From the NCBI RefSeq assembly GCF_018446385.1, contig NC_055987.1, positions 8,951,705 through 9,015,704 on the forward strand: 64,000 nucleotides of DNA. Reading direction: 5' to 3'. The notes under the pieces were generated by a model that searched no databases, was not told where the DNA came from, and saw only the letters and a program-made list of their open reading frames with translations. This document shows, one piece after another, positions 7,386 to 62,741 of the stretch (position 1 is the first letter of the stretch; each line of letters begins with the position of its first letter). The stretch is from Zingiber officinale (taxonomy: Eukaryota > Streptophyta > Magnoliopsida > Zingiberales > Zingiberaceae). Made by a program: the position numbers and the translations under genes.

Positions 7386-7588
7386 AAAAGTGTAACTCCC
7401 CGGCCTGGGCGGGCCCTGTTGGTGCAACATCCCTCAGGTCAAGGTTGACCTGGTTGACCAAGCTTGAGTCTTGGTTTGGGTTTCGATGTTTGACAATACA
7501 AGGTTGATTGAAGAAGAGTCAAGTAGGTCAAAGATGACCGGATACTTGACTGGGAAGTCCTAACTGGGATGTTAGGCAGAAGGAAGGA

Positions 7589-7850
7589 CCTAGTGAGTGA
7601 AGCTAGGCAGTGATGAAAATCCTAGTGAGTGAAGCTAAGCAGATTGGAAGTCCTGGTAAGTGAAGCCAGGCAGAAGAAAGTCCTAGTGAGTGAAGCTAGG
7701 TAGATTGGAAGTCCTGGTGAGTGAAGCCAGGCAGAAGAAAGTCCTGGTGAGTGAAGCCAGGCAGAAGAAAATCCTGGTGAGTGAAGCCAGGTGAAAATCC
7801 TAGTGAGTGAAGCTAAGTGAAAGACCTGGTGAGTGAAGCCAGGCACGGGG
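7589..7850. repeat. Tandem hairpin repeat in SirA LTR (CCTRG tgagtgaag CYAGG)
   Basis: About ten units spaced 20-30 bp. Arms vary together: units beginning CCTAG end CTAGG (or CTAAG), and units beginning CCTGG end CCAGG, so pairing is kept. The loop TGAGTGAAG is nearly constant. The same unit recurs in SirB (about 13415-13730, 18555-18870) and SirD (about 25250-25460, 34895-35140) LTRs. Confidence 0.85.
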
Positions 7851-8096
7851 AAATTCAGATGGGTCAAGATTGACCAAACATCTGGTGGAAGTCCAAGTAG
7901 GTCAAGGGAGTGAACGGATACTTGGCACGAAGAGAAAAGTCCAAGTGGGTCAAAGGGATTGACCGGACACTTGGTGGGGAGTCCTGGCAGGTCAAGGGAG
8001 TGACCAGATGCTAGGCATGATATACCAACAGGTCAAGGTTGACCGAATGTTGGTTTGAGAGGCTTGGGACTTGGTTTTGGGCAAAAACCAAGAGCT

Positions 8097-8420
8097 GGAT
8101 CGATCAGTGGATCGATCCAGGAGCTGGATCGATCAGTGGATCGATCCAGACTTTTCCCAGCGAACAGAAAGCCTCTGGATCGATCAGTGGATCGATCCAG
8201 GTCTTTCCCAGCGAACAGAGAGCCTTTGGATCGATCAGTGGATCGATCCAGAGGTCCCTAATCGATCAGCCGATCGATTGGGACGCTGCTGGTTCGCGCG
8301 ATAAGCGCTGGATCGATCCGTGGATCGATCCAGGTGTTTTCCCAGAGCACAGAGGTGCTCTGGATCGATCCGTGGATCGATCCAAAGCCTCCCCGATCGA
8401 TTGGGAACTTTCGAATCGAT
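8097..8420. repeat. SirA LTR palindrome array (GGATCGATC-type)
   Basis: Six to seven copies of a 20-22 bp palindrome with GGATCGATC and GATCGATCC arms around a 4-nt CAGT/CCGT-like centre. The spacers contain TTCCCAGCGAACAGARAGC or a variant. The array is repeated at 20804-21135 (3' LTR) and, more loosely, at 12225-12388 (internal). Open frames here encode only periodic peptides (for example DRSVDRS) and are not genes. Confidence 0.9.
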
Positions 8421-8938
8421 CGAGATCCGACCGTTGCGTCGTATTTGAGCTGCAGGCGTGCGATGGCTGCGGTAGAGTTTTACGATTTCATCTCAGATTA
8501 CACCAGCGACTTCTCCACACTTCTCTCAAGCTCAGATCGCCAGTTCTTGAAGGTTCTTGGTGGTTTTCCAAGTCAAGAGGCGGATCAAAAGCAAGAAGAA
8601 GAAGTTAGGGTTAGGGTTTTTATTGCACATCTTGTAAGCTTTTGCTTATCTTGTATTTCCCTTTCTTCTTCTTGTATTGAGAGTGTTGTAGGGCTTCTCC
8701 GCCTTTGGTAGTTACCATAAAGGAGTGTTATTCATAGTGGAGGGTGCGTGAGTAGGTGTGGATCCTTGGACTAGTCACCTCTTGTGAGGTGGATACCAAG
8801 TAAACCAATCTTGTTAGCGTTGTGTGGTTTGTTTCTTGTATTTCCGCTGCGCATATTTGAAGAAACAAGCAACGACGAGCACCTAGCACGCGAAGAGCTA
8901 TTCACCCCCCCCTCTAGCTACTTTTCGGTCCTAACAAG

Positions 8939-10895: not shown

Positions 10896-13183
10896 AGAGT
10901 GTCAACTCTAAAAAGAAGGGTAGTTAACCCAACTTTGAAGAAATTGACACTCAAGGAGTATTTTCAAGGTTATTATTAACCTTTGAAAATGAAATGGATT
11001 TACATTTACTCTTTGGAAGAGTAAAATGTGCCAGAAAATTGAAAATATTGATTTTAATCTTATTTGGCACAATTTGGGAAAACATAAGAAATACCAAGTT
11101 GAGATTTTGGCATTTTCTTAATATTTTAAGGCAAATCTTAGCCTTAGTTTAAAGTGCATCTCTTATGGAAAAATGAAATATGCCAACACTTGAGGAATAT
11201 GCTTAAATTAAATTGGCATAAATTAATCAAGAGAATTAGAAATGTCAAATTAGATTTTGGCACTTTCTTGAAGCACTTTGGGCAAATCTAGGGGTTAAGT
11301 TTTAGGATTAGCTAAGATTAAGGATACTTAGATAGATAATCTAGGTATATTTTATTTACGCTAAATCTTGCCATGATTGTTTGCCCATTATATGTCATGA
11401 CATCATGTTTTATTTTTGCACTCATGCCTTATTATAAAAATACAAAAATATCATGTCATGTCATACATACATCATGTAATTATAGGAATCTTTCTTTTGA
11501 AAGCTATCTCATTTTGATGTATGCCATAACATTATCATGCATTATGTTTAATTTCTTAAAAGCAAGGACAAATGACATTTATCAACAAGTGTTTTCAACT
11601 AGTGTTGTCAACAAGTGGTATTAACAAGTAACATCCTAAGTGGATGTTCAATATCCACAAAATGCCTAGATAGATATGCATGATCCCTAGATTAGGGCAA
11701 AACCAAAATCTCACATCTCACAAGGACTATAAGGTGACTTGTATGTGTTTTAGTGCACATTAGATACAAGTGAGATGTTAGGAAGATGAACAAAACTCAA
11801 GATGTTGATTTAGTGCATTCTTTTGAGTTTTAGGTTCATCAAAACACATAGTTATGTGTTTTCCCATCATTGGGAAAACTAATGTACAAGTCATGTGCAT
11901 TAAGCCCAAGGAATGTGATGGGATATTGGTTTTGAAAATTATTTTAAAAGGCTTTTGGAAAACCTTGGTGAAGGCTACCTTTTGATAGTAATCACCATTG
12001 AATAGTTAGACACAAACTTGAAGAAAATGCTAAAGTTTTAGCAAGTTTTCAAGCTTGTGTCAATCTTTGAAAATATGATGTATTTTCATAGAAAACTATT
12101 TTTCCATGATAAAGTATGCCCTAAATAATGTCTACACGAAATTTCGTGATTTTTGGATTTTTGTAGAATTTCCTAGGGGTTTCTGAAGTTGGCTGAATTT
12201 GAAATTCAGCAACTATCAGAGCTCCGATCGATCCATGGATCGATTGGAGTGTCTGAATCGATCAGTGGATCGATTCAGAAGGTAAAGCTCGCTGGATCGA
12301 TCAGCCGATCGATCCAAGAAGACTGAATCGATTAGTGGATCGATTCAGCAGGGTTCAATCGATTGGAACCTAACTCCAATCGATCGAAGATGCTGATTTG
12401 GGCTGGGAAGGTCTGATTTCAACATCCTTGAACCCGTTTTAGTCTAGTTAACCATTCCTAACCCCTCAAAATATATTTGTATACATAAAAATGGTGTTTT
12501 CATGTTGAAAACAAGGATGGAGTGCTTAAGGAAGGCTAAGTTGAAGTTTAGGTTGAGGTTTGTTTCAAATTTTGAATATTTGAACCTCAAAACTTCTAAA
12601 ATTGGGTTTCCTAAAGTTTTAGAGATTCCAAGTCATTGTTGGTGCAATGACAGAAGTTACCACCATGTCTTTAGGGGGAGGGACTCTTTAAAGACATGAA
12701 AATTATTTTTCATGAACCTTGGAAGGTGGTTAACCTTCCATTAAAAACATGCTCAAGGTTGAGCGTTTGAACTTTAATGGGGAGTAGATATCCTCATTGT
12801 TCAAGTGGCTTCAAGTGGATAATGCTCAAGGATGGGCATTTGCCTATATTGGGGGAGAATGTAGGGTTAAGGATAATAAAGGGTATGGGACCTTCATTAT
12901 CGTGTTGATCACAACGAGTGAAGTTGTGAACAATGATGAGCAACTCTTCAGGGGGAGAGTTTTCAACAAGTGAATTTGTTGATGTGTACCCAAAAATGGG
13001 GCATGGTTTGATGTGTGCCAATAGGGGGAGAATGAAAGGGAGTAAGTTAGGATTTTATTGCCTAGAGGGAGTTTGCCCTCTTAGGGGGAGAATGAAGGGC
13101 TTAACTTATGTATTCATTGCCCAGTGGCATGAAGCAGGTTTAGGCTATGGGATTAGCCTAACTTACATGTGGTATTGTAAGTG
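10896..13183 (+). other. SirA 3' internal non-coding region
   Basis: No gene. The order resembles the post-pol region of SirD and the post-gag region of SirB: an ATCTCACAT...GAGATGTTAGGA pair near 11717-11784, an ACAAGTCATGTGCATT stretch near 11885, a palindrome array at 12225-12388, then several AGGGGGAG purine tracts (about 12674, 12852, 12948, 13023, 13083) resembling spare polypurine tracts. Confidence 0.7.
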
Positions 13184-14324: not shown

Positions 14325-14331
14325 TATAAAA
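14325..14331 (+). promoter_or_regulatory. SirB LTR TATA box
   Basis: TATAAAA immediately downstream of the palindrome array and about 585 bp before the LTR end. The same motif occurs in the 3' LTR at 19502-19508. It is the likely core promoter for the gag transcript. Confidence 0.65.
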
Positions 14332-16446: not shown

Positions 16447-18320
16447 ATGAGTTAGAGTGTGCCAACCTTACTTGAATAGGTAGTTAACCTAATCATGGCA
16501 AGAGGTGGCACCTTAGGAATTTTCAAGGTATAATCAAGCCTTGAAAATGAAATTAAGAATTATTCCTAAGGTGATTAGAATGTGCCAATCAAATTTGAGG
16601 AGTTTTCTAGAGTCAATCTAATTGGCACATAGTGATCTAAAAATCTTTGGTATAAGATGCTAGGTCTATTACACTTAGGAATATAGAACCTATGGTAAAA
16701 TGATCCAAGTTATCAAAAATGGCAACTAAGGCTAGAATTAGGTATTTTCTATACCTTGACATGTTATTTGCCATATATTGTTTGCCATATGCCATGTCAT
16801 GACATCATATTTATTTTATGACCATTTAAAATGTCATGATAATGCTTAGGTTATTTATATGTCATGCTCTATTTAAATTTCATACTTTATGTCATGACAT
16901 CATGACATTGGCACATGTTATTATGTATGATATCATTTTATGCCATGTCATCATTTCTTGCATTTATAATCAATGAAATTGATTTAAGGTTAAAAACATA
17001 ATTTGATATGGAGATCAAATTGTTGTTTAGAAAATGCATGAGAACTTAGCCTAAGATGACCTAAACCCATATCTCACATCAAAATTGACTTGAATGTGTT
17101 TGATACACCTTAGATGTGTGTGAGATATTAGGATGATGAGTTAGGATCAAGGTGCATAGTTCTTGTACCTAGATGAGCCTAATTCTAATTTGGGGATCAT
17201 AGGGAAAGCTTATGTACAAGTCATGTACATTTAGCCCTAAGATTGTGATCCTAAATTAAAGGGTTTAAAGTCATTTCAAAATTGATTTGAAAAACCTTGA
17301 TGAAGCTTTTCTAGTGATAGCATTCATCATTGAACAAGTTGATACAAAGATAAGTTAACTTTGAGCTATTTCAAAGACTTTTGAACTTTGTATCAAGATT
17401 GAAAAATGGAAGTTATTTTCATAGAAAACTATTTTTCCATGATAGTATATGTTATGAGGAATGTATCCTCAAAATTTCATAATTTTTGAAATTTTCTGTA
17501 ATTTTCTAGAGGTTTCTGAATTTCGTGGAGAGAAATCAGAACTTATCAGACCTTTATCAGGTTTGTGGACCGATCAGAAGGGTTTCTGATCGGTCCAGGG
17601 GAGCCTGGATCGGTCACTGTGACCGATCCAGAGGGAGCCTGATCGGTCTGGTGACCGATCAGGGCGTGCCAACCTGCTGAATTTCGACTATTTGTCTGAA
17701 ATTGCAGCTAATGAAGTTGGTGTTTTGGATTTCTAAAGGTTTGGAACTCTCCAAGACATTGCTGGTGCAATGGTAAGGGGGAGTTGACCTTTAGGGGGAG
17801 TTTTACCTATTAGTCAAGAGGAGTTGACTTTTAGGGGGAGTTTTTACTCGTTAAAATTTTTTAGGATGAGTGATATGGGATTATCACTAAGTTGATTGTT
17901 GAATTGAGTATCAAGGGGGAAATTAAGGGTCTCAATGAAAGGTATGAGACTTTCATTAGGAAGAAACTCTTGACCTTGATTCACTCTTTTTGATGTGTGT
18001 CAAAAAGAGGGAGAATGGAGAATGTCTAGAGAATGTTCAAGGAAGAACATTGGAGTTAGTGGGAGAGTTTGTTGATCACAACGAGTGAAGTTGTGAACAA
18101 CGATAACTTACTCTTTAGGGGGAGAGCTTGTTGATGTGTGCCAATAGGGGGAGAATGAAGGGTTTAAGTTAGGCCCTCATTATCTAAGAAGGAGGTTGCC
18201 TTCTTAGAAGGAGAATGTAAGGTTGTAACTTATGTTTCATTACCTAGTGGCATGAAGTAAGTTGAGGCTATTGGATTAGCCTAACTTAAAGGTATTGTCA
18301 AACATCAAAAAGGGGGAGAT
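16447..18320 (+). other. SirB 3' internal non-coding region
   Basis: No ORF of note. It has the same order as in SirA: an ATCTCACAT...TGAGATATTAGGA pair (17074-17134), a TACAAGTCATGTACATT stretch (about 17215), palindromes 17566-17662, and several AGGGGGAG tracts (17776-18170) before the true PPT at 18307. Confidence 0.7.
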
Positions 18321-20087: not shown

Positions 20088-20125
20088 ATAGTGTTGGTAT
20101 TGTCAAACATCAAAAAGGGGGAGAT

Positions 20126-21643
20126 TGTTGGTGCAACATCCCTCAGGTCAAGGTTGACCTGGTTGACCAAGTTGAGTCTTGGTTTGGGTTTCGATGTTTG
20201 ACAATACAAGGTTGATTGAAGAAGAGTCAAGTAGGTCAAGAATGACCGGATACTTGACTGGGAAGTCCTAACTGGGATGTTAGGCAGAAGGAAGGACCTA
20301 GTGAGTGAAGCTAGGCAGTGATGAAAATCCTAGTGAGTGAAGCTAGGCAGATTGGAAGTCCTGGTAAGTGAAGCCAGGCAGAAGAAAGTCCTAGTGAGTG
20401 AAGCTAGGCAGATTGGAAGTCCTGGTGAGTGAAGCCAGGCAGAAGAAAGTCCTGGTGAGTGAAGCCAGACAGAAGAAAATCCTGGTGAGTGAAGCCAGGT
20501 GAAAATCCTAGTGAGTGAAGCTAGGTGAAAGACCTGGTGAGTGAAGCCAGGCACGCGGAAATTCAGATGGGTCAAGATTGACCAGACATCTGGTGGAAGT
20601 CCAAGTAGGTCAAGGGAGTGAATGGATACTTGGCACGAAGAGAAAAGTCCAAGTGGGTCAAAGGGATTGACCGGACACTTGGTGGGGAGTCCTGGCAGGT
20701 CAAGGGAGTGACCAGATGCTAGGCATGATATACCAACAGGTCAAGGTTGACCGAATGTTGGTTTGAGAGGCTTGGGACTTGGTTTTGGGCAAAAACCAAG
20801 AGCTGGATCGATCAGTGGATCGATCCAGGAGCTGGATCGATCAGTGGATCGATCTAGGCTTTTCCCAGCGAACAGAAAGCCTCTGGATCGATCAGTGGAT
20901 CGATCCAGGTCTTTCCCAGCGAACAGAGAGCCTTTGGATCGATCAGTGGATCGATCCAGAGGTCCCTAATCGATCAGCCGATCGATTGGGACGCTGCTGG
21001 TTCGCGCGATAAGCGCTGGATCGATCCGTGGATCGATCCAGGTGTTTTCCCAGAGCACAGAGGTGCTCTGGATCGATCCGTGGATCGATCCAAAGCCTCC
21101 CCAATCGATTGGGAACTTTCGAATCGATCGGGATCCGACCGTTGCGTCGTATTTGAGCTGTAGGCGTGCGATGGCTGCGGTAGAGTTTTACGATTTCATC
21201 TCAGATTACACCAGCGACTTCTCCACACTTCTCTCAAGCTCAGATCGCCAGTTCTTGAAGGTTCTTGGTAGTTTCCCAAGTCAAGAGGCGGATCAAAAAC
21301 AAGAAGAAGAAGTTAGGGTTAGGGTTTTTATTGCACATCTTGTAAGCTTTTGCTTATCTTGTATTTTCCTTTCTTCTTCTTGTATTGAGAGTGTTGTAGG
21401 GCTTCTCCGCCTTTAGTAGTTATCATAAAGGAGTGTTATTCATAGTGGAGGGTGCGTGAGTAGGTGTGGATCCTTGGACTAGTCACCTCTTGTGAGGTGG
21501 ATACCAAGTAAACCAACCTTGTTAGCGTTGTGTGGTTTGTTTCTTGTATTTCCGCTGCGCATCTTTGAAGAAACAAGCAACGACGAGCACCTAGCATACG
21601 AAGAGCTATTCACCCCCCCTCTAGCTACTTTTCGGTCCTAACA
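20126..21643 (+). repeat. SirA 3' LTR
   Basis: 1518 bp copy of 7417-8936, preceded by PPT AAAAAGGGGGAGAT (20112-20125) and followed by TSD GGCCC. Hairpin units 20305-20556, palindromes 20804-21135. Confidence 0.93.
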
Positions 21644-31677: not shown

Positions 31678-32878
31678 GGAGGGAGTTGGGAATGTGTTTG
31701 GCTCCTTAGGTCATTAGAGTTTCACCATGATCAATAAGGACTATTAAAATGACAAGAGTAATTGGGACAAAAATTTGGGCAACTTGGGAACATCTCACAT
31801 ACACTATAAGGTTTAACAAAATGTTTTGTTTGCTAGAAATGGGGTGAGATGCTAGGATCAACCAAATTATTCAAAATGTATCATGCATCCCTTGAATAAT
31901 TAGGTTGAAGAGACATTAATTGAGTTTGGGGAACACCATTACACAATTCATGTGTATTTGGTTCCTAGATCTTACTCATACATTCCAACCAAGGAATCTT
32001 GGTTGGACTTTTGTCTAGAAATTGTCTAACATAGTTAATGTGTTTGGTTGATACTTTTTGCTTGATACATTTCATGACTTTGATTGATGTTAGGACAAGT
32101 TGATAAAGAAGTATTAGGAACTAAGACTTATTTTGACAAACTTGAAACTAATCATAGAAAGGACGAATTTTGGAATAGGTTATAGGTAGCCTATGTCAGT
32201 TTTGGGACTTTGCTTCACTACAGATTGTAGTTTCAGCAATTTCCTAAGTTTGTGGAGATTCACTGATTTTGAAGCTAAGAATCGAGAAGGTTTAAATTTT
32301 GAATTTCTAAGCCTTGAATGAGTTCAATTCTTGAGAGCAAATCATTAGGAATTATCCATCTGATATCACTAACCATAATCTATGGGCTTCTAGGATCCTA
32401 GGAAGTTGTTGGAACAAAATTTAGGATTTTTGATACGAGTTTCAGATATCAGAAGTCTGAAGTATCAGACACTGATCGGTCGCTGGACCGGTCAGGAGAC
32501 TCCCTGATCGGTCCACAGTCCGGTCAGGGGCTCTCTTGCGACAATCATATCTGAACGGTCTGCAGACCGTTCAGATATCGAACAGAGAGGTTGCCGACCG
32601 ATCAGGAAATTTCGATAGGTTCTGTTCGCGTTTTGAACGGTCCCGGGACCGATCTGAAGGATGCCTGATCGGTCCAGGGACCGATCCGCTATCTCCGATC
32701 CAAGGATCTGATCGTTCAATCCTTCTCCTGATCGGACGGCCGTCCGATCGGGTTGGTCACCTACCCTCTTAAAACCTCCCATTCTTTGGCGTCTCACGCG
32801 AACCCTACCTCTCCACTTCTCTCGTTTCTTCTTCCCAGCGCCGGCCGACCCTCGTTTCTTTCTCCGACGAACGAAGTA
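31678..32878 (+). other. SirD spacer between pol and the third ORF, with internal palindrome array
   Basis: Non-coding. Begins with a purine-rich AGGAGGGAGTTGGG. An ATCTCACAT...TGAGATGCTAGGATC pair at about 31795-31860 matches the SirA and SirB post-gag regions. Palindromes lie at 32473-32752, one spacer reading CGAACAGAGAGG and another its near complement TTCTGTTCGCG. A CT-rich leader-like run (about 32790-32878) leads into the third ORF, so a second promoter here is plausible. Confidence 0.7.
32473..32752. repeat. SirD internal palindrome array
   Basis: GATCGGTC/GACCGATC and CTGAACGGTC/GACCGTTCAG palindromes, the same core as in the SirD LTRs but inside the element just upstream of the third ORF. 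Confidence 0.85.
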
Positions 32879-38329: not shown

Positions 38330-38660
38330 ACATTAAAAGAAAACGGTTAAAAATCGTTGTCATAAGCCTTTAAAACCGTTGTAATTGGCAGTGTTGTTAA
38401 AAGTGGGGGGCTACGACAACGATTTTAAACCGTTGTCTTTGACTGAAAAGACAACAGTTTTGCAACGGTTTAAAACCGTTGTCTTTGAATGAAAAGACAA
38501 CGGTTTAAAACCGTTGTTGTTTAGAGTATTTTTTTAATAACATTGCCCGTTACAATCATTTTTGGGGCTACGACAATGATTTTTAACCATTGTCTTTGAG
38601 GGTGATAGATAACAACAACTGTTTTAAATCGTTGTCTTTTAAATTATTGTCTTTTAATAC
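38330..38660. repeat. CACTA left subterminal repeats
   Basis: At least seven copies of ACAACGGTTT or its complement in both orientations, some paired into hairpins such as GACAACGGTTT followed by AAACCGTTGTC. The right counterpart is at 43700-43945. Confidence 0.88.
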
Positions 38661-43600: not shown

Positions 43601-43974
43601 TAGCTAGGTTTGGGAGCGCGAAGGGGAAAACAAGGCGCCGAAAAGATTTGCGGAGAGAGGGAAAGTAAAACTGCGAGGGGAAATGACGAAACAAATAAAG
43701 TCAAAGACAACGGTTTATCAAAACCGTTGTCGTAGCCCCTAAAAAAGCGCTTAAAGACAACGGTTTTAGATAACCGTTGTAAAATGCGTTGTTGATTTTT
43801 AAAAAAATTGCTCAACGACAACGGTTTTTACAAAACTGTTGTCTTTTGTATTTTATGGGAGCTCAAAGACAACAGTTTTAGATAAAACCATTGTCTTTTA
43901 CCAAATTTACAACAGTTCCATCTAAAACTGTTGTCTTTGTGGTGTTGTTGTTTAACATTTTTGTTGTAGTGCAT

Positions 43975-44520: not shown

Positions 44521-45458
44521 TGTTGGAATCCCGTGGTAGTTTTGATGTGATCAACCAAGTTAAGTTAGGTCCTGTTGTGTTTAACTCTTGTGTCTAAGTG
44601 TGCAAGAACTTAAGAACACAAGAAGCCGAGTGGAAAGATGCAGCTAGCGAGAAGGATGGCACGGGAAAGGAGCTAACGAGCTCGGTGCATCCAAGGGACG
44701 AGGTGCTGCGGAAGAGTACACTGGTAGACTAGAAGGACGTGCGCGATGTTCCGAGGGATAAAAAGCTAGAGTAGAAGTTTGCTCGAGGAAAAAGACGAAA
44801 AATGGGTCTGGGTGAGCCCTATTTCGGATGACCGTGATCACCTAGGCGATTAGAGCAGCAAAAGAGAGAAAGAAGGCTAAAGTTGTTGCTAGAGGCGCCT
44901 TCAAAGGGAATTGAAGGCATCTCTGTGGCGCCTCTACGCCTCACTGTGGAAGGCGCCTTCCATGGCTGGAAGGTGCCTTCGATGAATAATACGAAGGCGC
45001 CTTCCAGCCCTATGGAAGGTGCCTTCAACCAAGCTAATTTTAGCCGTTGTTAAAGGATAATACTTTATCCTTTGAAGCCTCGCTGGAGGTGCCTTCCAGC
45101 CCTATGGAAGGCGCCTTCAAGCCACAGATAAGAATTTTTAGGGGCTTTAAAAAGACCCCTGGATCTAGAAAATAGACAATCAACTCTTATATTCTTTTCC
45201 TAGCAACTGTCTGAGCGTTTAACGATTGTAAGAGGCTTCTCCGCCTACACGAAGGAGATCTTTTAGAACTTTTCATTGCCTTTGGATTAACAACCACCTA
45301 GGTTGTAACAAAGTAAATAGTATACCTCATCTCTTTAGTTATTAATTTAAGTTATTATTATTGTTACTTTTAATTTGAGTTGAAAGAAAGGGAAAGATAT
45401 TGTTTTTGTTTTCAAGTTATTCATATCTCCCTCCTACCGGCCTCCAAGGGTCCTAACA
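44521..45458 (+). repeat. SirC 3' LTR
   Basis: 938 bp copy of 23820-24753 with visible point differences. GGCGCC palindromes 44895-45118. Confidence 0.92.
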
Positions 45459-45980: not shown

Positions 45981-47088
45981 TGTTGGAGTAATCCCAATGG
46001 TTTGTGGGACCATGTGTTTTGGTGTTTAGGCAAAGGGTTTAAGTTAGGTTCACCCTTGTTATTTGATATGTGTATGTGAGTGTGCAGGTATGCAGGATAC
46101 ACATGTGACTCAGGTTGATGGCTTCGGGTCCAGTGAAGGATGGAGCATCCGAGGGACCATGGACAAGGTTGCGAGGACAAGGGCCGAGGGAAGCGACTTC
46201 GAGGCATACGCGAAGGATGACATTAGGGATGAGCCGTGGGCTTGAATGCATCCGAGGGACGAGAGCCAAAGGAAGTAGGCTTGAAGGCAAGAGGTCAAGG
46301 TTGCAAAGAAGCGTCAAGTGAGTCATAAGGGTGAGGGTACGAGTGCACGAGAGATTATACTCGGAGTAAAATCCTAGTTTTAGGGATTTACTGCAGCGTT
46401 ACTGCAGCAGTACTGTAGCGTTACTGTAGCAATACTGTAGCAGTCGACTGCATATTTTAGCAGTCGACCGAGCAGTCGATTGGGTGCGAACAGAATGGTT
46501 CTGTTCATTCGGTCAGTGTGGATCAGTTGACTACATGTTTTAGCAGTCGACTGCACCAGTCGACTGCTTGTTTTAGCAGTCAACTGGTATCGAGCCGTTG
46601 GGATGTAACAGTCGAATTTTCACAGAGGGCAGTCGACTGCATGTTTTGGCAGTCGACTGGTATGCGGGGTTTTCAACCCGCGACCTATATAACCAAAGCT
46701 TGGGAGCTTGGTTATAGTTGACGAAATTAGTGGTGGGTAACCTCTAATTAGTAGTCAACTAGTGGCCTAGCAATCCAAGTGCTCTTGATCGAGTTGTGGC
46801 GTGGTTTCTCCACCGACAAGGAGGATTGTGCTAGCCGGAGTTTCCGGGGATTAATCCACCGACAGATTGAGGGATCGTCCACCTTACGGGCAGCCGTGGA
46901 GTAAGAGCAAGTTATCTCCGAACCACGTAAATGAGCTTGTTAGCGGTTTGCATTCTTTCTTATTCTTGTATTTAGTTTAGCTTGTTTGTTTTGTATTTCC
47001 GTTGTGCAAGCTAACAAGTGTAGGAAGCAAGGATTTAGGGGTGCCGTCTATCCAACCCTCCTTCAAGCCGGCCATCCGATCACCAACA
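45981..47088 (+). mobile_element. SoloJ: solo LTR with CAGTCGACTG palindromes
   Basis: 1108 bp, TGTTGGAGT...CACCAACA, perfect TSD TCAAG (45976-45980, 47089-47093), inside SoloF. It has repeated GTTACTGYAGCAGTACTG-like units (46390-46440), the palindrome CAGTCGACTG and variants (46439-46665) with a spacer GTGCGAACAGAATGG, TATATAA at 46686-46692, and a Sirevirus-like R/U5. Confidence 0.88.
46390..46665. repeat. SoloJ palindrome array (CAGTCGACTG-type)
   Basis: At least eight CAGTCGACTG or near variants, several separated by a CATGTTTTAG-like linker. The spacer at about 46482-46496 (GTGCGAACAGAATGG) matches the spacer motif of SirA and GypG arrays. Confidence 0.85.
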
Positions 47089-48215: not shown

Positions 48216-50530
48216 TGTAACGCCCGAAAATTCTCAAAATGAATTTTAGAAATATTCTATTATTTTTCTGGAATTTTAGAATATTTTTATGAAATTTTTG
48301 GAGTAGCAGAAGTAGCAAAATTAAATAAAAACGTAAAATAGCCTAAGCGGAAATTGAACCCGAAACCTATGAACCCTATGACTTATAGGGTGACTTTAGT
48401 AACCAAGGGCCCCAGCAGGGGTGGGCTAAAAGAAGAGGAGAACAATTATATTTATAGGCGAGTTGGGTTGTATTAATCACTTAATATAAATAGGGAAATT
48501 AAGTGGAGAGTTATTATTTTTGATCGACAACTCTTTCCCCTCATCCTCAACCGCCGCCCCTCTCTTCTCCCGCACCCTCTCGGCACGCCAACTCCAAGAA
48601 GACCTAGGGTTCAATCCCTAGGGTCGTAGGAGCATCCTCCGGCGACAACTCCAGCACGAGGACGCTCCCCTCCGCAAGAAGAACGTGTAGAAGTAAGAGG
48701 ATCACCGAAGAGATCTTCTTCCTCGGAAACCTAGCGATCGGATTGTAAGAAAACTTAGCGCAGGATGTAAGTAACCCCTCACCTGCAGTATAAGTAGCTA
48801 ATCGTATGCTTTTACGGTCTTTGTTCGCTTTTATGATCTTAGCGTAGTCATATGCAGAATTAGAGCACACCAAGTGCTCGATTAAATGACTAGTACAGAT
48901 ATATGCTACAGTAGTCATTTTAATAGCTCAGTTAAATGTCATAGATGCATTTTAAATAGCACACATAGTCTTGCTTTAGTTTATATGGGACTATGGTCCA
49001 ATAGGTGGGCTCCCATAGTCGCCTCTAGGTTCAGATAACCTAGCTCTAGGTTCAGATAACCTAGTAAGAGCAAGACAAAATAAATTAGATTAAGAATCAG
49101 TATTTTACATTATCAATGACACTGTACTGGACTCTCAGTTGTCCTTGGGTTGAGCTCCCATAGTCGTCCCTAGGTTTAGATAACCTAGTAAACCCTACTG
49201 GATTCGGGACTAGCTACCTCGGGTCTAGTTAGGGATGCGCGCATAGCAAGTACAGTTGCCGGACTCATCAGCAGCATGTTTATTATGTTTATCTATTTAT
49301 ATAAATAGTTTTCAAACTTCACAAACCAGATATGTGAATACAGCTCAGCTTCAGTTTAGTTTTCTTATTGATATAGCAAATAGCTTTATGTTCAGTTCTT
49401 GATTGCCACGACTTACATGTCCATATGCCATGTTTTTAGTATTTTCAGTATGATCATCAGCATGTATTTCATTAGCATCTTGTTAAAACATGATTTCATC
49501 GAATGCATGTTTTGTGAGGTAGATGGTTCTTACTAAGCTCCCAAGCTTATAGTTTCCTTTTCCTTATACTGCAGATAAAAGTAAAGGGAAGATGGATTAG
49601 TGGAGGCTGGAGGGCAATGTGATCAGATGTGTGTGAGAAGGAACTTGGAATAAAGACCCTTGGGGAGTAGCTCATCTAAAGACTTAGTATTTCTGTTTTG
49701 GTTACTTTTCTGCACTTTTAGGATATTAAGTGTCATGAATTATGAACGTATGCACTATATCATGCTTAGACCCCTAGTTGTCTTGATGTTAGATAAATAA
49801 CTAGGAATGATGAAAGTAATGACATGCCTAGTAAGTTAGTAATGCTTTTAAGTTGATACACTTGTGTTATATGTGGATTAGTGGTGAAATGCAGTAGAAA
49901 TCGCAGAAATCAGAGCTCCAATCGATCAGCCGATCGATTGGAGAGTCCTCAATCGATCCACTGATCGATTGGGGAGTGATTTCCCGCGTACAGAAAGCTG
50001 ATGAATCGATCAGTTGATCGATCGACCATGGATCGATCAGCCGATCGATCGGGAAGTAATTCTCCATGTACAGAACGCTATTGAATCGATCAGCTGATCG
50101 ATTGAGGAGCCCTCAATCGATCAACTGATCGATTGAACACAACTTTCGCGTACAGAGAGCTGCAGAGTCGATCAGCTGATCGATTGACACTATTCAATCG
50201 ATCAGTCGATCGATCGGGAGAACTCCCCGTGCACAGTAGCACGTTGAATCGATCAGTGGATTGATCAAATAACTCCAATCGATCAGCTGATCGATTGGAC
50301 AGTCTGATTTCAACTTTTTGATCAAATAAAAAGTTTAGGTTCCCTTCTTTAGCATATGTACAACTTCAGAAGTGTATTCTGAATATAAATTTCAGATTTT
50401 ATAGCAAATAGCAGAGATTTTAATTAGTTCAGCTTTTCTGCACCGTAATATTCAGTGATAGCCCAAGAATAGTTTAGCATAATATAACCCCCGGCCTTAC
50501 AGCCTAGTCAGTAGAAGGCGGGTCGTTATA
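48216..50530 (+). repeat. GypG 5' LTR
   Basis: 2315 bp, starting TGTAACGCCC and ending GTTATA (the 3' copy ends ATTACA). It contains the palindrome array 49918-50301. An untranslated CT-rich stretch near 48530-48700 looks like R/U5 leader. Confidence 0.92.
49918..50301. repeat. GypG LTR palindrome array (ATCGATCAGCTGATCGAT-type)
   Basis: About eight palindromes with ATCGATCAG and CTGATCGAT arms. Spacers include TTTCCCGCGTACAGAAAGC and CTTTCGCGTACAGAGAGC. The copy in the 3' LTR is 58891-59273. The spacers closely resemble those of the unrelated copia element SirA. Confidence 0.92.
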
Positions 50531-50746: not shown

Positions 50747-51880
50747 ATGGTACGATGACGCCCAGCTAAAAGGCGCCAGCTACTGAGCCCCAGCATGAGG
50801 CAGACAGCTCAGTGCCTCCTCCAGACCTTATAGCAGTAGTGGCTCAGTTACAGAAGCAACTAGCTGAACAGCAACAGGAAATAGCCACCCTAAGGGCTAA
50901 TCAGCAGAACACTCCCACTGCCACTTCCACCAGTCCAACCTACAGCACCAGTAGCCCCAACAGCAAGGGCAAGGAGAGAAGCCTATCTGATCCAATGGCA
51001 GAAAATCAAGCCAGAGAATTTCTCAAACACTAGTGAACCATGGGATGCCCAAGCCTGGTTCAAAACACTGGAGAGTACGATGGATCTTCTGGATTGGCCA
51101 GAACGTGAAAAGGTGAAATGTGCCTCCTTCTGCCTGGCAAGAGACGCACGTATGTGGCGGGAGAGAATTAAAGTGAAGCGCCCAGTGGACCAGATGACAT
51201 GGGCCGACTTCGAGAGAGAATTCTTTGAGGAGTTCTTTCACATGCGGGTCACAAACCGCCACTACGACGAGTTCATTGAATTTCGTTAAGGCAACCTTTC
51301 AGTTGAGGAGGTCGTGAAGAAATTCAACAGACTGGCTCGTCTATGTCCCGAACTAGTCAGCACCGAAAGAGAATGAGTCCGGATGATGCTCAAAATGCTA
51401 AGGCCGGAAATAGCAATGAACGTGACCAGTGACGTTCATAGACCGCAAACTACTGAAGAATTGGTAAGTAGTGCTCTGATCACCGAGCATTACCAGAACA
51501 GCATCAAGCAGCAGAAGCAAGCCTTTTCAGAGTCAAAAGGCCAAGGAGGCTCAGGTACTCAGAAACACCAGGGCCACAGCTCTAACTGGAAAGGGAACTC
51601 CAATAACAAACGTAAATCAGGGAGTTACCCAAAAGGAGGACCAGCTAGTAAGCAGCCTAGCTATCCCAAGTGCTCTACTTGTGGGAAATTCCACCCCGGA
51701 GTTTCTCGCAAGGGCACACGAGGATGCTTTGAATGTGGCCAGGAAGGGCATATGGCTAAGCAATGCTCGAACAAGACTAGTTTTCCCCCACCGCAGCCGA
51801 TTCAGTACGGAGACAAACCAGCCCAGTTACACCAGATGCAGGCTGCTTTAGATGGTCCACACATCAGCCAGGGCAGACTA
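50747..51880 (+). pseudogene. GypG gag
   Basis: The start ATG at 50747 is followed three codons later by TGA (50756-50758). The reading then changes frame (AVVAQLQKQLAEQQQEIATL from about 50830) and returns to the first frame for LDWPEREKVKCASFCLARDA. TAA at 51287-51289 and TGA at 51374-51376 interrupt it. A CCHC knuckle CFECGQEGHMAKQC is intact at 51725-51766. Several stops correspond to CAA or CGA codons changed by C-to-T. Confidence 0.88.
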
Positions 51881-54800
51881 GAAGCCCCCTCAGCCACGAC
51901 GAATGTGAGGATCTACTCACTCACCAGAGAGGACGTAGCGAATGCCTCGACAGTTGTTACAGGTCAGATCAGTATTTTACAGCAAAGTGCAACTGTCTTA
52001 TTCGATACTGGGGCAACCCATTCTTATATATCCAGGGTATTTGTCGAAAAGTTAGCAATACCTCCAGATGCAATTAGTGGTCAGTTTCTGACAACATTAC
52101 CTTCAGGAGAAATCATGGCATCCACGCACTGGCTCCGAGCAGTGCCAATTATTATAGCAGACAGAGAACTCTTTGGTGATCTGATAATGCTAGACATGAC
52201 TGACTATGATGTCATCTTGGGAATGGACTTTCTGATCAAGTACAGTGCCTCCATAGAGTGTCGTAAATAGAAAGTTGTATTCCAACCTGAAGCAGGAGTA
52301 TAGTTTGGGTACATCAGAGAACCAAAGAGAAAGGCCAAGAAGTTTCTCTCAGCTTTGAAAGCATAGAAACTATTGGAGTCAGGATGTACAGGGTTCCTAG
52401 CACATGTAGTCAATACCAGTCAAGACGAGGACCAAAAGCTAGAAGAGGTCTGAGTTGTATGTGACTACCCAGCAGTCTTCCCTGAGGAGTTACCGGGTTT
52501 AGCACCAGACAGGGAGATTGAATTTGAGATAGAACTCGTCCCCGGCAAGAATCCCATCTCCAAAGCACCCTACCGCATGGCTCCAGCAGAACTAAAGGAA
52601 CTTCAGGAGCAACTACAGGAGCTGCTTGACCGCCCTAGTCACTCACCATGGGGAGCGCCTGTATTGTTCGTGAAGAAGAAGGACGGGAGCATGCGCCTGT
52701 GTATAGACTACTGGGCACTAAATCAAGTCACGATTAAGAACAGGTATCCTCTCCCCAGGATATATGACCTGTTTGATCAGCTAAAGGGAGCAGCAGTGTT
52801 CTCTAAAATAGACCTCAGATTGGGATATCACCAGGTGAGAGTTAAAGAAGGTGATATACCCAAGACAGCTTTCAGGACCAAATACGGGCATTATGAGTTC
52901 GTAGTCATGCCCTTTGGCGTGACGAATGCTCCAGCTACTTTCATGGACCTAATGAACAGAGTATTCAGAGAATACTTAGATAAGTTTGTTATCGTGTTCA
53001 TCGACGACATTCTTATCTATTCTAGAACTCAGGAAGAACACGCAGAGCACCTGAAGATAGTACTGCAAACCCTTCAGCAGAACCAGCTATACGCCAAGTT
53101 CACGAAATGTGAATTCTGGCTCGATCAAGTATCCTTTCTGGGTCACATCATCTCCAAGGATGATATCATGGTAGACCCCAGTAAGATAGAGGCTGTGAGT
53201 AACTGGAAGAGGCCTAAGAACGCCAGTGAAATCAGAAGCTTTTTGGGACTAGCAGGCTATTACAGAAAATTTGTAGAGGATTTCTCCAGGATAGCCTCCC
53301 CACTGATAGCTCTCACCAGGAAGAACAGAAAATTTCAGTGGACAGAGGACTATGAGAACAGCTTCATCAAGCTAAAAAGAAGATTGACCAATGCTCCCAT
53401 TCTGACTCTGCCAGAAAACACAGACAACTTTGATATTTACAGTGACGCCTCTAAATTGGGACTAGGAGCAATACTGATGCAAGAAGGTAAGGTGATCGCC
53501 TATGCCTCCAGACAACTCAAGGACTATGAGAGGAACTACCCTACTCACGACCTTGAGCTTGCAGCAGTTGTCTTCACCCTCAAAATTTGGAGACATTACT
53601 TATATGGAGCTCAGTGCAGAGTGTATACAGATCATCAGAGTCTGAACTACTTCTTTACTCAGAAGGATCTGAATATGCCACAGCGCAGATGGCTCGAGCT
53701 GGTCAAAGACTATGGCATAGACATCCTCTACCATCCAGGAAAGGCCAATAAGGTGGCAGACGCACTTAGCAGGAAGTCCAGTACTATCTTACTATCCCTA
53801 GCAGCCATGTCACCGCCCCTACAAAAGGAGATTACAGATTTCGGTCTCGAACTTATAGTTGGGCAACTCTCTACTATGACATTAGCGTCTACCCTACTTG
53901 GTGACATCCAGACAGCTCAGGATCAAGACTCTGAAATTCAGAAAATCAAGCAAGGGTTAGCAGAAGCAGAAAGTGGAGAGTTTAGAGTATCTGATAGTGG
54001 GGTATTATATTTTGGTGACAGACTATGTGTTCCGGATCAGGAGGAACTACGAAGGAGGATCCTAGACGAGGCTCACAGGACTCCTTATGTGATGCATCCT
54101 GGCTCCACCAAGATGTACCAAGACCTAAAGAGACATTTTTTGTGGCTTGGGATGAAAAGAGACATCGCTAGGTATGTCAGTATCTGTCTGACCTATCAGA
54201 GAGTCAAGGCAGAACACCAGAGACCAGGAAGAGTTCTGCAGCCTATTCAAATTCCAAAATGAAAGTGGGAGGATATTTTCATGGATTTCATAGTGGGACT
54301 ACCCAGAACCACGAATAGTTTGATGCCATCTGGGTAATAGTCGACAGGTTGACTAAATCAGCCCACTTCTTAGCTATCAGGATATCCTACTCCATGGAGC
54401 AGCTAGCTCAGTTGTATCTCAAGGAGATCGTCAGACTGCATGGAGTCCCACGGACCATCATTTTGGACAGAGATAGTAGATTCACGTCACACTTCTGGGA
54501 GTGTGTACAGTCAGCATTGGGCACTAGGTTAAAGTTTAGCACATCTTTCCATCCTCAGACAGATGGTCAGACGGAGCGAGTAAACCAGGTACTCGAAGAT
54601 ATACTCCGAGTGTGTGCCCTAGACTTCAAGGGAAGTTGGTGCAAATATTTGTGTTTAGCAGAATTTGCATACAGCAATAGCTATCAGGCCACCATCGGCA
54701 TGGCACCCTACGAGGCTCTCTATGGGCGGAGGTGTAGATCTCCAATCTGCTGGTATGAAAGTGGTGAACAGAAAGAACTAGAACTTCAGACAGATCTGGT

Positions 54801-55323
54801 AGTAGATACCACAGCAGCTATACAGCAGATCCACCAGAGGATAGAGACAGCTCAGAGCCGCCAGAAAAGCTATGTCGATACACGGCGTCGACCCTTAGAG
54901 TTTTCAGTTGGGGATACAGTATTCCTCCGAGTAGCTCCCATGAAGGGAGTAATGCGTTTTGGGAAGAAGGGCAAATTAAGTCCCAGATATGTGGGACAAT
55001 ACCTTATTACTAGAAGAGTTTGCAAGATGGCATATGAGCTAGAGCTACCCCAGGAGATGTCAGCTATTCATAACATATTTCACGTCTCTATGCTGAAGAA
55101 GCATATCCCAGATGCCACCCAGGTGATTGAGCCACAGTCAGTACAAGTCCGCGAAGACCTCAGCTATGACAGTCGGCCTATTCAGATAGTAGACCGAGCA
55201 GTTAAGAAATTGCGGAACAAGAAGGTACCATTAGTAAAAGTCATTTGGCAAAATCACATCGCAGAAGAGGCAACTTGGGAGACAGAAGTTAGTATGAGAC
55301 AGAAGTACCCAGAGATATTTTAA
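51881..55323 (+). pseudogene. GypG pol: protease, RT, RNase H, integrase, chromodomain
   Basis: Protease LFDTGATHSYIS near 52000. TAG codons at 52268-52270 and a few downstream break the protease-RT link. RT from about 52577 with the catalytic FIDDILIYS (about 52996) intact; RNase H with [14 protein letters not shown]. The integrase HHCC finger reads CLTYQRVK where the family has CLTCQRVK, so one zinc ligand is lost; TGA at 54260-54262 replaces Trp. A 1-nt loss near 54320 shifts frame. The core VDRLTKSAHFL, LDRDSRFTS and QTERVNQVLE follows in 54349-55323, then a chromodomain-like end (KVIWQNHIAEEATWE). Organisation and end are typical of Tekay/Del chromoviruses, which target heterochromatin. 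Confidence 0.92.
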
Positions 55324-55358: not shown

Positions 55359-58300
55359 TATAACGCCCAAAAATTCTCAAAATGAATTTTAGAAATATTC
55401 TATTATTTTTATGGAATTTTAGAATATTTTTATGGAATTTTTGGAGTGGTAGAAGTAGCAAAATTAAATAAAAACATAAAATAGTCTAAGCAGGAATTGA
55501 ACCCGAGACCTATGGACCCTATGACTTATAGGGTGACTTTAGTAACCAAGGGGCTGTTAGTTAAAGCCCTAGAGCCAATCATTTGATGATTGTATTATGA
55601 ACTTGTTGTATCATATTCTTATATAAATAAAGGTATTTGTTTTTGGTTATTATACTTACTTGTATTGGTGCCAAATAAACTAAGTATAATAGCGTCCTTG
55701 AGTAGAAGGTTCTTACCTATATCAATCGATTAGTTGAATCGATAGTGAGATGATATAGGGAACACTACTCTAAATCATTCCTAGTCGAGTATTAACATTC
55801 AGGGACAATGTTAATGCAATAAGACTAGCATGTAGGTCAACTCGATGACTTGATCTCACAAGTCATGGATATAGAGATATCAAGTTGACACATGGGTATG
55901 CATTGGAGAATGTATACTGAATGACACGCCATGAGAAAGTATCATGGATCGTTATATGAGTGTCATATACTTTCTCATGTGGCTATTAGTATGACTACTA
56001 GTCCTTAGACCTGAAGTCACCATGGTTCCCTACATAAGGAGTTATGTACTTTGATTTCGTCAAACGTCACCCGTAACTGGGTGGACGATAAAGGCGATTA
56101 CTGGGTATGTAACGAATTATGCAGAGGGATGTGAGTGATGTAGATGGGATCTATCCCTCCTATATGATGGGAGAGACATCGATATTCTTGATAGAGTGAG
56201 ACCACGAAGTGCATGGCCATGCCCAAATGAGTTAATATGAGATATTGAGCTCATTTGATTTAGTGAGTCTACTTGGAGTTCAAGATTTAGATTGGTCAGA
56301 GGATGACACGGTCTATGTCTCACATTGATCAATTTAGATGTCTAGGATAGAAGGACACTTGTCATATATTGTGAGGAGTCATAATTAGTAGTCACAAGGT
56401 GATGTTGGATCTCAATATTTTTGTAACTTGGGTAGTAATGATGTGTTGCTAGATACCGCCCATTACTTATGCTCCTAAATGGGTTTAGGGGCATTGCCAA
56501 CATTACAAGAACCTATAGGGTCACACACAAAGGACAATTAGATGGAGATTAGGTTCATATGATGAACCAAGAGGATTGGATTCATGTGATGAATCAAATT
56601 GGATTAAGAGTAATCCTAATTGGGTTAATTGAGTTGGACTCAAGTTGATTCATGTGTTCAATGAGTCTAATTTAGATTATGACTCATTGAATCAATTTAA
56701 TTAAATGAAGTAGATTCATTATATTAAATTGGCTTGAATTAAATGGTTGGATTAGATCAACCATGAGAGAGATTAAGTCAAGTTTGACTTGACTTGAGAG
56801 GAAGAGGAAGAGTCAAGTTTGACTTGACTTTATGCCACATCATTTGTGACTTGGCATTAAGTGGCCAATAATGGTGTTACACATCATCATGTTTAGCACA
56901 TGTGTGTGCCACCTCATGGAGGTTACAAATCTCTTTAATGGCCACATAAATGAGAATGGGAGTTTGAATTCCCATGGTGGCCGGCCACTTATGGTGTTGA
57001 ATGAGATTGAATTTTCATTCAAGGGATATTTATTCCATCTTCTTCCTTGCTCTCTCTTCTTGCTTTCCCTCTCCTCCTCTTGCCGTGACTGATCAAGGGT
57101 GCTAGCACACCTATGTTTAGTTTTTCTCCACCCATTTGTTCGTGTGGATACTTCTAGAGGATCGTACGCTTGACAATCTCGAGATCCGGCACTTCCTTGG
57201 ACGAGCGGGATTCGTAAAGGGCACGCATCAAGGGTAAAAAGTTTTCTCTTTGTAAATCTAGTTTAGAACTAAGTCTAAGAAACTCGTACTCGTATTATTT
57301 TGTTTTTATTTTACTTCGCACAGATCCGGTGACGGGGGTTTCGGGGTTTCCGCGACACGAAAAAGCGATTTTCGCGGCCCGAAAAACCCAACAGGGGCCC
57401 CAGCAGGGGTGTGCTGAAAGAAGAGGAGAACAATTATATTTATAGGCGAGTTGGGTCGTATTAATCACTTAATATAAATAGGGAAATTAAGTGGGGAGTT
57501 ATTATTTTTGATCGACAACTCTTTCCCCTCACCCTCACCCGCCGCCCCTCTCTTCTCTCGCACCCTATTGGCACGCCAACTCCAAGAAGACCTAGGGTCG
57601 TAGGAGCACCCTCCGGCGACAACTCCGGCACGAGGACGCTCCCCTCCGCGAGAAGAACGTGTAGAAGTAAGAGGATCGCCGAAGAGATCTTCTTCCCCGG
57701 AAACCTAACGATCGGATTGTAAGAAAACTTAGCGCAGGATGTAAGTAACCCTTCACCTGCAGTATAAGTAGCTAATCGTATGCTTTTACGGTCTTAGTTC
57801 ACTTTTATGATCTTAGCGTAGTCATATGCAGAATTAGAGCACACCAAGTGCTCGATTAAATGACTAGTACAGATATATGCTACAGTAGGCATTTTAATAG
57901 CTCAGTTAAATGTCATTGATGCATTTTAAATAGCACACATAGTCGCTTCAGTTTATATGGGACTACGGTCCAATGGGTGGGCTCCCATAGTCGCCTCTAG
58001 TTTCAGATAACCTAGCTCTAGGTTCAGATAACCTAGTAAGAGCAAGACAAAATAAATTAGATTAAGAATCAGTATTTTACTTTATCAGTGGCACTGTACT
58101 GGACTCTCAGTTGTCCTTGGGTTGGGCTCCCATAGTCGTCCCTACGTTTAGATAACCTAGTAAACCCTATTGGATTCGGGACTAGCTACCTCGGGTCTAG
58201 TTAGGGATGCTCGCATAGCAAGTACAGTTGCCGGACCCATCAGCAGCATGTTTATTATGTTTATCTATTTATATAAATAGTTTTCAAACTTCACAAACCA

Positions 58301-59503
58301 GATATGTGAATACAGCTCAGCTTCAGTTTAGTTTTCTTATTGATATAGCAAATAGCTTTATGTTCAGTTCTTGATTGCCACGACTTACATGTCCATATGT
58401 CATGCTTTTAGCATTTTCAGTATGATCATCAGCATGTATTTCATTAGCATCTTGTTAAAACATGATTTCATCGAATGCATGTTTTGTGAGGTAGATGGTT
58501 CTTACTAAGCTCCCAAGCTTATAGTTTCCTTTTCCTTATACTGCAGATAAAAGTAAAGGGAAGATGGATTAGTGGAGGCTGGAGGGCAATGCGATCAGAT
58601 GTGTGTGAGAAGGAACTTGGAATAAAGACCCTTGGGGAGTAGCCCATCTAAAGACTTAGTATTTCTGTTTTGGTTACTTTTCTGCACTTTTAGGATATTA
58701 AGTGTCATGAATTATGAACGTATGCACTATAACATGCTTAGACCCCTAGTTGTCTTGATGTTAGATAAATAACTAGGAATGATGAAAGTAATGACATGCC
58801 TAGTAAGTTAGTAATGCTTTTAAGTTGATACACTTGTGTTATATGTGGATTAGTGGTGAAATGCAATAGAAATCGCAGAAATCAGAGCTCCAATCGATCA
58901 GCCGATCGATTGGAGAGTCGTCAATCGATCCACTAATCGATTGGGGAGTGATTTCCCGTGTACAGAAAGCTGATGAATCGATCAGCTGATCAATCGGCCA
59001 TGGATCGATCAGCCGATCGATCGGGAAGTAATTCCCCGCGTACAGAACGCTATTGAATCGATCAGCTGATCGATTGAGGAGCCCTCAATCGATCAACTGA
59101 TCGATTGAACACGACTTTCGCGTACAGAGAGCTGCAGAGTCGATCAGCTGATCGATTGACACTATTCAATCGATCAGTCGATCGATCGGGAGAACTCCCC
59201 GTGCACAGTAGCACGTTGAATCGATCAGTGGATCGATCAAATAACTCCAATCGATCAGCTGATCGATTGGATAGTCTGATTTCAGCTTTTTGATCAAATA
59301 GAAAGTTTAGGTTCCCTTCTTTAGCATATGTACAACTTCAGAAGTGTATTCTGAATATAAATTTCAGGTTTTATAGCAAATAGCAGAGAGTTTTAATTAG
59401 TTCAGCTTTTCCGCACCGTAATATTCAGTGATAGCCCAAGAATAGTTTAGCATAATGTAACCCCCGGCCTTACAGCCTAGTCAGTAGAAGGTGGGTCATT
59501 ACA
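55359..59503 (+). repeat. GypG 3' LTR (split by SoloK)
   Basis: Starts TATAACGCCC (TGTAAC with G-to-A) and resumes after SoloK at 57399. It is close to the 5' LTR over most of its length. Palindromes 58891-59273. Confidence 0.92.
55555..57393 (+). mobile_element. SoloK: large solo LTR (1839 bp) in the GypG LTR
   Basis: TGTTAGTTAAAG...CCCAACA with perfect TSD GGGGC (55550-55554, 57394-57398). No PBS, PPT or coding sequence. TATATAAATAAAGG near its left end (about 55620), and a GC-rich right end with GACGGGGGTTTCGGGG. Small open frames inside show no known domain. Family unassigned, probably copia. Confidence 0.82.
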
Positions 59504-61837: not shown

Positions 61838-62741
61838 TGTTGGACCCCGTGGTAGTTTTGATGTGATCAACCAAGTTGGTTAGGTCCTGCTGTGTTTGAT
61901 CCCTGTGTCTGAGTGTGCAGGAGCTTAGGAGCACAGGAAGTCGAGCGGAAGACGCAGCTAGCGAGAAGGACGGCACGGGAAGGGAACCGACGGGCTCGGT
62001 GCGTCCAAAGGACGAGAGAGCTGCGGAAGAGTACTCCGGTGGGCGTGAAGAGCGTGTGCGGCGTTCAAGGGACATTAAGCCGGACGGAAGCCTGCTCGAG
62101 GAGAAGACCGGGAATTGGGATCGGGTGAGCCCTATTCTGGTTGGCCGCAATCACCCAAAAGAACGGAGCGTCAGAAGCTGAAGAAACCAGGCTGAAAAGT
62201 GAGCTGCCAGCTTGGAGGCGCCTCCAGCAGGCTTGGAGGCGCCTCCATCATGAGGGCGCCTTCAACCCTGTTGAAGGCGCCTTCAACGGGTCAGATTTGA
62301 CCGTTTGCGTTGCGGATAAAGTTTTATCCGCTGACAGAGTTGGAGGCGCCTTGAACCTTGTTGGAGGCGTCTTGGACCCTCGGGATAGACTTTCCAAGAG
62401 CTATATATAGCCCCCTGGAGCTAGGAATGAAATAACAACTCAAGCAATCAATCTGTACTCAATTCCTAGCAACTAAGTGAGCGTTCTAAGTGTAAAAAGG
62501 CTTCTCCGCCTACAATAAGGGAGATTCTGATAGTAGAGCTTTTCATCGCCCTGGATTAACAACCTCCTTGGTTGTAACCAGGTTAAATTCTGTTTCTGTT
62601 TCTGTTTCTTTTTCTGTCCCTTAATTTAGTTGCTGTTATTTCTATTGCTGATTTAAATTCTGAGTTGAAATCCGAGAAGGGTATTTTTAGTTTTGTTTTC
62701 AGCAATTCACCCCCCTCTTGCCGGTCTCCGCTGCACCAACA
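61838..62741 (+). repeat. SirH 5' LTR with GGAGGCGCCTCC palindromes
   Basis: 904 bp, TGTTGG...CACCAACA. Palindromes GGAGGCGCCTCC and GAAGGCGCCTTC at 62213-62380, TATATATA at 62402-62409, then R/U5-like sequence. Confidence 0.9.

Follow-up and report, generated by a model that had tools for sequence, protein, structure and literature searches.

The data support the genome-wide presence of one palindrome-spacer module in two retrotransposon superfamilies, copia and gypsy, whose LTRs display no detectable common ancestry. The module was analysed in a window of 64 kb (the whole stretch of DNA under study), in the Sirevirus-type element SirA and the gypsy element GypG, and in the assembly containing it. 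The usual view is that LTR evolution takes place within families. Judging from the sequences, it is somewhat probable that the array is a compact cis-module built of two classes of dyads, which would have moved between Sirevirus and gypsy elements by recombination, been amplified later and been kept as a site for host factors. If this is true, a control block crossed the copia/gypsy boundary and then rode to thousands of sites, and unrelated retrotransposons reach the same host regulators. The old question of the function of Sirevirus palindromes would become testable on one defined dyad of ~21 bp, and the shared module could be tested as a candidate docking site for plant proteins.

Retrotransposons of the window

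Four elements with paired LTRs were delimited by self-comparison of the window. The 5' LTR of SirA (7417..8936, + strand; ends TG...CA) is 98.3% identical to its partner at 20126-21643, and that of GypG, as aligned (48404..50528, +), is 96.4% identical to its partner at 57392-59501. The LTR pairs of SirB, which is nested in SirA, and of SirD are 94.0% and 90.9% identical, respectively. As in Sireviruses, the 3' LTR of SirA follows a PPT and an AT/TG attachment site (GGGGGAGAT joined to TGTTGG), and multiple PPTs are present in the form of G-rich purine tracts in the linker (12673, 12851, 12950) in addition to the terminal one. The element is bordered by GGCCC target-site repeats. Copia-type pol was not found in the interior of SirA, where neither of the two ORFs of at least 200 aa carries a pol domain: one has gag-type matches (Retrotran_gag_2 below its cut-off) and the other no domain. 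SirD displays copia pol domains including RVT_2, and SirA is read as a gag-only Sirevirus (Ty1/copia) related to it. In SirA and in SirB, nested in it (7417-21643), ORFs of at least 200 aa have either no domain or only gag-type or zinc-knuckle ones, and both elements look like gag-only, non-autonomous Sireviruses. The LTRs of SirA, SirB and SirD also have in common ~30-bp tandem repeats of AGTCCTGGTGAGTGAAGCCAGG type, a second type of array located upstream of the palindromes (7574-7845, 13404-13721, 18548-18865, 20282-20553, 25248-25331 and 34889-35134).

The ORFs of GypG (51377..55323, +) encode RVP_2, RVT_1, RT_RNaseH, Integrase_H2C2 and SH3_Tf2-1, a Ty3/gypsy set, and the order RVT_1, RT_RNaseH, Integrase_H2C2 places the integrase after the RT as in gypsy elements. 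The C-terminal chromodomain test gave PF00385 with an E-value of 0.025 and 14.9 bits, under the cut-off of 25.1. A 192-bp stretch directly before the 5' LTR (48218-48409) is 94% identical to 55361-55552, directly after the pol ORFs, and is perhaps a recombinant or a neighbouring copy. Elsewhere in the window, GGCGCC palindromes (GAAGGCGCCTTC type) occur in further repeat regions (24243-24415, 44949-45116, 62213-62285), and two clusters of ACAACGGTTTTAAACCGTTGT-type inverted repeats lie ~5 kb apart at 38417-38516 and 43704-43934; the latter may represent the subterminal repeats of some DNA transposon.

Palindrome arrays and the shared spacer

A sequence-only reading of the window had located related arrays in the LTRs of SirA and GypG, and both are indeed there and recur in the respective 3' LTRs. 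The array of the GypG 5' LTR (49916..50301, +) contains 9-10 palindromes and 4 spacers, namely GCGTACAGA at 49986..49994, CATGTACAGAACGC at 50065..50078, GCGTACAGA again at 50148..50156 and the mini-palindrome CGTGC-ACAGTA-GCACG at 50228..50243 (all +); its copy in the 3' LTR spans 58888..59271 (+). The palindrome had been given as one sequence, and what is present is an array of variants with differing centres. In the SirA 5' LTR, the array (8094..8422, +; 3' LTR copy at 20802..21130, +) consists of GATCGATC palindromes with spacers GCGAACAGARAGC at 8160 and 8211 and a later spacer GAGCACAGAGGTGCTC. Palindrome core and spacer do agree between the two elements, both of which have GATCGATC palindromes with GCGNACAGARAGC spacers between them. 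Tandem duplication is apparent in both LTR arrays, with units of 51 bp and ~80 bp.

SirA, SirB and SirD have numerous palindromes in their LTRs and linkers, as is typical of Sirevirus RM arrays. With respect to the CGG-CCG core, SirB and SirD have CGGTC..GACCG, whereas SirA and GypG have ATCGAT instead, like Tnd-1. The internal (linker) array of SirA (12222..12388, +), devoid of exact GCGNACAGA, was also found in loci L016, L020, L026 and L027. The internal array of SirD (32475..32752, +), upstream of the ORF 32894-34306, is made of GATCGGTC-type palindromes and contains CGAACAGA at 32579 (+) and 32621 (-), and the element SoloJ contains the dyad GCGAACAGAA-TGG-TTCTGTTC at 46486..46506 (+) among GTCGAC palindromes. 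The recurrence of the motif that had been proposed for these last two places is real, and in both cases the motif makes up one arm of an inverted pair.

In the top-scoring spacer pair between SirA and GypG (TTTCCCAGCGAACAGAAAGC and TTTCCC-GCGTACAGAAAGC), the alignment spans 20 columns and contains a single gap and a single mismatch; its score of 15 was equalled by 2 of 5000 dinucleotide shuffles, and the eight top spacer scores sum up to 85, above all 5000 shuffles (mean 50, maximum 73). Within the window, the motif is confined to arrays and not scattered over unrelated DNA: GCGNACAGA occurs ten times, each time inside palindrome arrays covering 8.0% of the window, though these are not ten independent events because only four families are involved. 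It is not universal either, being present in 6 of the 14 palindrome arrays of the window; it is absent from the other eight, which include those of SirB, those in the LTRs of SirD and, as far as the exact form is concerned, that of the SirA linker. A scan of the whole window for GCGAACAGA with at most one mismatch returned 17 matches versus 9.8 expected, a number reached in 1 of 100 shuffles. A weaker instance suggested in SirB near 14074 is not among these 17 and was not confirmed. The whole-window scan is only modest, and the strength of the case resides in the position of the motif and in the genome-wide counts.

Genome-wide distribution

Patterns were counted in the 3.09-Gb, 211-contig assembly containing the window, with the backward pattern as control. 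GCGNACAGARAGC followed by ATCGAT was matched 5639 times in forward and 10041 times in reverse orientation (the reverse figure is too high, since overlaps were counted twice), versus none in either orientation of the control; we estimate that the genome holds ~11,000 such sites. The first 100 places listed were grouped by eye into 68 sites and 46 of these were fetched, comprising all 42 listed C1 sites up to 13.86 Mb and four chosen further on. With the arrays masked in the reference sequences, all 46 are LTRs (35 Sirevirus-type, of which 31 SirA and 4 SirB, and 11 GypG-type), many of them being the two LTRs of one element and hence not independent. With this masking, no GypG-type locus (0 of 11) had a same-strand match to any Sir LTR at E<=1e-8, which bears out the claim that the two groups have no detectable LTR ancestry in common; one of the 11 holds a SirD internal stretch. 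Array-bearing copies of SirA and GypG are therefore found far outside the window, as array-bearing loci genome-wide. A 20-base word of the GypG LTR just upstream of the array reaches ATCGATC within 12 bp in 60 of its 66 exact copies; a further 83 copies carry one mismatch. Arrays of the RM type are not confined to Sireviruses, since GypG LTRs carry them, both in the window and at 11 other loci.

The half motif was also searched beside other cores. GCGAACAGA followed by GATCGGTC gave 2396+2343 = 4739 matches versus 0+1 in the control, and the half motif is rare beside GGCGCC (79+76 = 155 matches versus 6+6 = 12). From the GGCGCC search 30 loci were cut, 17 of which are GypG-family LTRs with GATCGGTC palindromes, so that GypG shows both Sirevirus cores, GATCGATC and GATCGGTC. 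Among 8 inspected loci of this search, some non-GypG ones look unrelated and partly gene-like. Loci L035-L046, L050, L051, L054, L056 and L057 represent a GypG subfamily with mostly GATCGGTC palindromes, and the inspected copies of this GATCGGTC-type subfamily keep GCGAACAGAGAG spacers. A 25-mer, GCGAACAGAAAGCTTCTGGATCGAT, made of spacer plus palindrome, is common to the GypG copy L075 and the SirA-family locus L016.

The complete dyad, CGAACAGAA-n(1-30)-TTCTGTTCG, has 2,635 matches genome-wide versus 5 in the control. Among 50 listed places, the centre is three bases long in 33, two in 9, four in 5 and longer in 3. Twelve of these places, chosen for differing centres, were fetched and in all twelve the dyad lies among palindromes, with GTCGAC cores in five (SoloJ family) and GGCGCC cores in three; the remaining four have mainly GATCGGTC and some GATCGATC cores and include 98-211 bp stretches 80-85% similar to the GypG LTR. 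We infer that the spacer common to SirA and GypG, GCGAACAGAAAGCTTCTG joined to GATCGATC, is a truncated dyad that has merged with the palindrome following it. What had been proposed as a spacer is indeed shared, and it reads as one half of a dyad or as a dyad in fused form. The possibility that the dyad is a heat-shock element was dropped as the commonest centre, three bases in 33 of the 50 listed places, breaks the spacing of such elements.

Flanks of the arrays

The GypG array had been paired with the LTR array of SirA; when the flank is included, its closest partner is the SirA internal linker array, and not only the LTR. The 3' flank of that linker array (12385..12458, +) is homologous to the 3' flanks of the arrays in several GypG copies. 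Between L026 (SirA linker flank) and L011 (GypG), 37 of 45 columns are identical, with a score of 27 reached by none of 400 shuffles. In pairwise comparison, no more than 3 of 400 shuffles did as well as 9 of the 13 GypG copies; scores are weaker in the three copies L015, L067 and L069 (12, 15 and 23 of 400 shuffles among them) and null in L019, these shuffle tests ignoring the relatedness among copies.

Two profiles were built. The one made of five SirA linker 3' flanks was run over the window together with 76 loci and retrieved its own family (8 matches), then GypG copies L010 (2.3e-5) and L011 (1.1e-4), and in the window, weakly, the 3' flanks of the GypG 3' LTR array (59259-59315, E 0.074) and 5' LTR array (50287..50341, +, E 0.24); the reversed database gave no match at E<=10. 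Its other weak matches have the opposite orientation and fall in the 5' flank of GypG arrays (L021 at 0.041, L067, L019, L069) and likewise in ten GATCGGTC-type loci (E up to 0.7); one further weak match, L065 (0.48), is a SirA-family locus. The opposite-strand matches arise because, in GypG, the flank on one side of the array in part repeats the flank on the other side in inverted orientation (GAAATCAGA/TCTGATTTC), and most weak matches being of this sort, the 3' homology given by the first profile comes from L010, L011 and, weakly, the window copies. These flanks, at 49860-49920 and 50300-50330 and in GypG loci, form an outer frame around the palindromes. The second profile, made of seven GypG 3' flanks, finds after the GypG copies all eight SirA linkers on the right strand (2.9e-5 to 0.023), versus a best E of 0.95 in the reversed control. 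It recognises GypG copies left out of it (L014, L067, L015 and L069, 1e-12 to 5e-6), and its match is only weak in GATCGGTC-type GypG loci. Profiles did not establish homology of the 5' flanks (L016 0.03, window 1.3, none in the other direction), and pairwise comparison of these flanks gave scores reached in 1-11 of 400 shuffles for 6 of 13 copies and in more for the remaining ones.

A stretch of the SirB linker (17429..17553, +) is homologous to the upstream flank of the SirA linker array. The two linkers are similar up to the start of the array (7.8e-14) and similarity resumes near 12602; the array and its 3' flank are therefore a variable block between them. The 3' flank of the SirB linker was compared as a possible trace of a common Sirevirus ancestor, and its similarity was equalled by 63 and 11 of 1000 shuffles. 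As to the direction of transfer, the flank is recognisable across GypG copies and weak in GATCGGTC-type loci, a pattern that may speak for a move from gypsy to Sirevirus; the available part of PMC2829016 describes palindromes as spread among Sireviruses, which argues for the opposite. A search for a gypsy RT outgroup scored 150 of 64,549 candidates, all close copies of at least 93% identity.

Origin and function of the module

In the explanation favoured here, the first class of dyads would be the palindromes with their family-specific core (GATCGATC, GATCGGTC, GTCGAC or GGCGCC) and the second would be CGAACAGAA-n-TTCTGTTCG, either complete or reduced to a 5' half that runs into the following palindrome. 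The module may have passed between the Sirevirus and gypsy families by recombination, probably through template switching between co-packaged RNAs, or else through gene conversion between arrays, with ~45 bp of 3' flank carried along. Tandem duplication would then have expanded the array, which would have spread with each element family and been retained because host proteins that bind DNA as dimers would use it as an enhancer or promoter array. Insertion preference for palindromes was discarded as a route of spread, being called weak in the accessible portion of PMC6911290. A more specific version, an exchangeable regulatory cassette in both superfamilies in which the dyad CGAACAGAA-n3-TTCTGTTCG would serve one host factor while palindrome cores are swapped and recombination provides the crossing, is put forward tentatively.

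The earlier proposal of a mobile or convergent module holds in so far as the module looks exchanged between LTRs; shared descent fits better than pure convergence. Convergence, in which selection by a single host factor would have given unrelated LTRs their common dyad and palindromes with no exchange of DNA, is rather unlikely, although the dyad, whole or halved, is found beside four palindrome cores in several lineages and the GypG subfamilies have GATCGATC and GATCGGTC cores as Sireviruses do. The 45-column 3' flank outside the palindromes and the common 25-mer ask for descent, even if the flank may itself be a binding site, as it repeats TCTGATTTCAGC and inverted copies stand in the GypG 5' flank. 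That mutation by itself would generate look-alike arrays, through palindrome correction and tandem duplication, is very improbable: both arrays are tandemly duplicated and their arms covary, but such a process would not make the same non-palindromic spacer half and the same 3' flank in two families. Chance or gene conversion limited to this window, for which the proximity of SirA and GypG (at most 64 kb) could speak, has practically no probability left, being refuted by the genome-wide counts, by the 60 of 66 word copies and by the 46 sampled loci, all Sirevirus-type or GypG-type LTRs.

The arrays could also act as RNA, in the form of packaging or dimerisation hairpins or small-RNA hotspots whose palindromes are kept for base pairing, and in maize, according to the available portion of PMC5311732, the palindromes of Sirevirus LTRs are hotspots of small RNAs. 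A putative TATA precedes the GypG motif by ~1.5-1.7 kb (in both LTRs of the window and 7 of the 11 loci fetched), so the GypG array is probably transcribed; in SirB, the array stands just upstream of a TATA, contrary to an RNA role. The outer palindrome arms covary and GT:AC mismatches are balanced (Sir 108:87, Gyp 69:81), and DNA-level dyads therefore fit better than sense-RNA hairpins, which were rejected for lack of a clear GT excess over AC in either family. An RNA role, which also leaves the recurrent spacer dyad unexplained, is accordingly judged improbable. The array being far downstream of the TATA in GypG and just upstream in SirB, it is not one conserved promoter part. In SirD and three GGCGCC loci the arrays adjoin an ORF start or a ATGCCTCC word, and from such places they may act as enhancers.

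Comparison with known systems

Palindromes in Sirevirus LTRs are already known, and no report of their sharing with gypsy LTRs, nor of the dyad, was found in the literature search, which covered sources in part. The Triticeae complex elements attributed to template switching (PMC1950507, in the part seen) likewise derive mosaic retrotransposons from recombination at the RT stage; they differ from the present case in being large fused insertions (Angela-like copia, Opie) and not a short cis-module crossing superfamilies. The cis-region of maize Sirevirus LTRs (Bousios et al. 2016, as related in the available part of PMC5311732) is likewise palindrome-rich and fast-evolving, and the maize work cited there concerns small-RNA mapping and evolution within Sireviruses, with no gypsy exchange mentioned in that part. 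Further counterparts are the repeated motifs (RM boxes) of Sireviruses (Bousios et al. 2010, PMC2829016), which the accessible text calls Sirevirus-specific and absent from classic copia. They likewise comprise many palindromes per LTR, upstream of a TATA, and additional ones in the linker that precedes the envelope-like gene. The RM of Tnd-1 has the ATCGAT core ACAATCGATTGT, and the CGGTC-type RM cores resemble those of SirB and SirD. No spacer of the present kind is described among the RM boxes in that text. Unlike these boxes, the arrays reported here are also carried by a gypsy LTR, and a second, recurrent dyad is interspersed among their palindromes.
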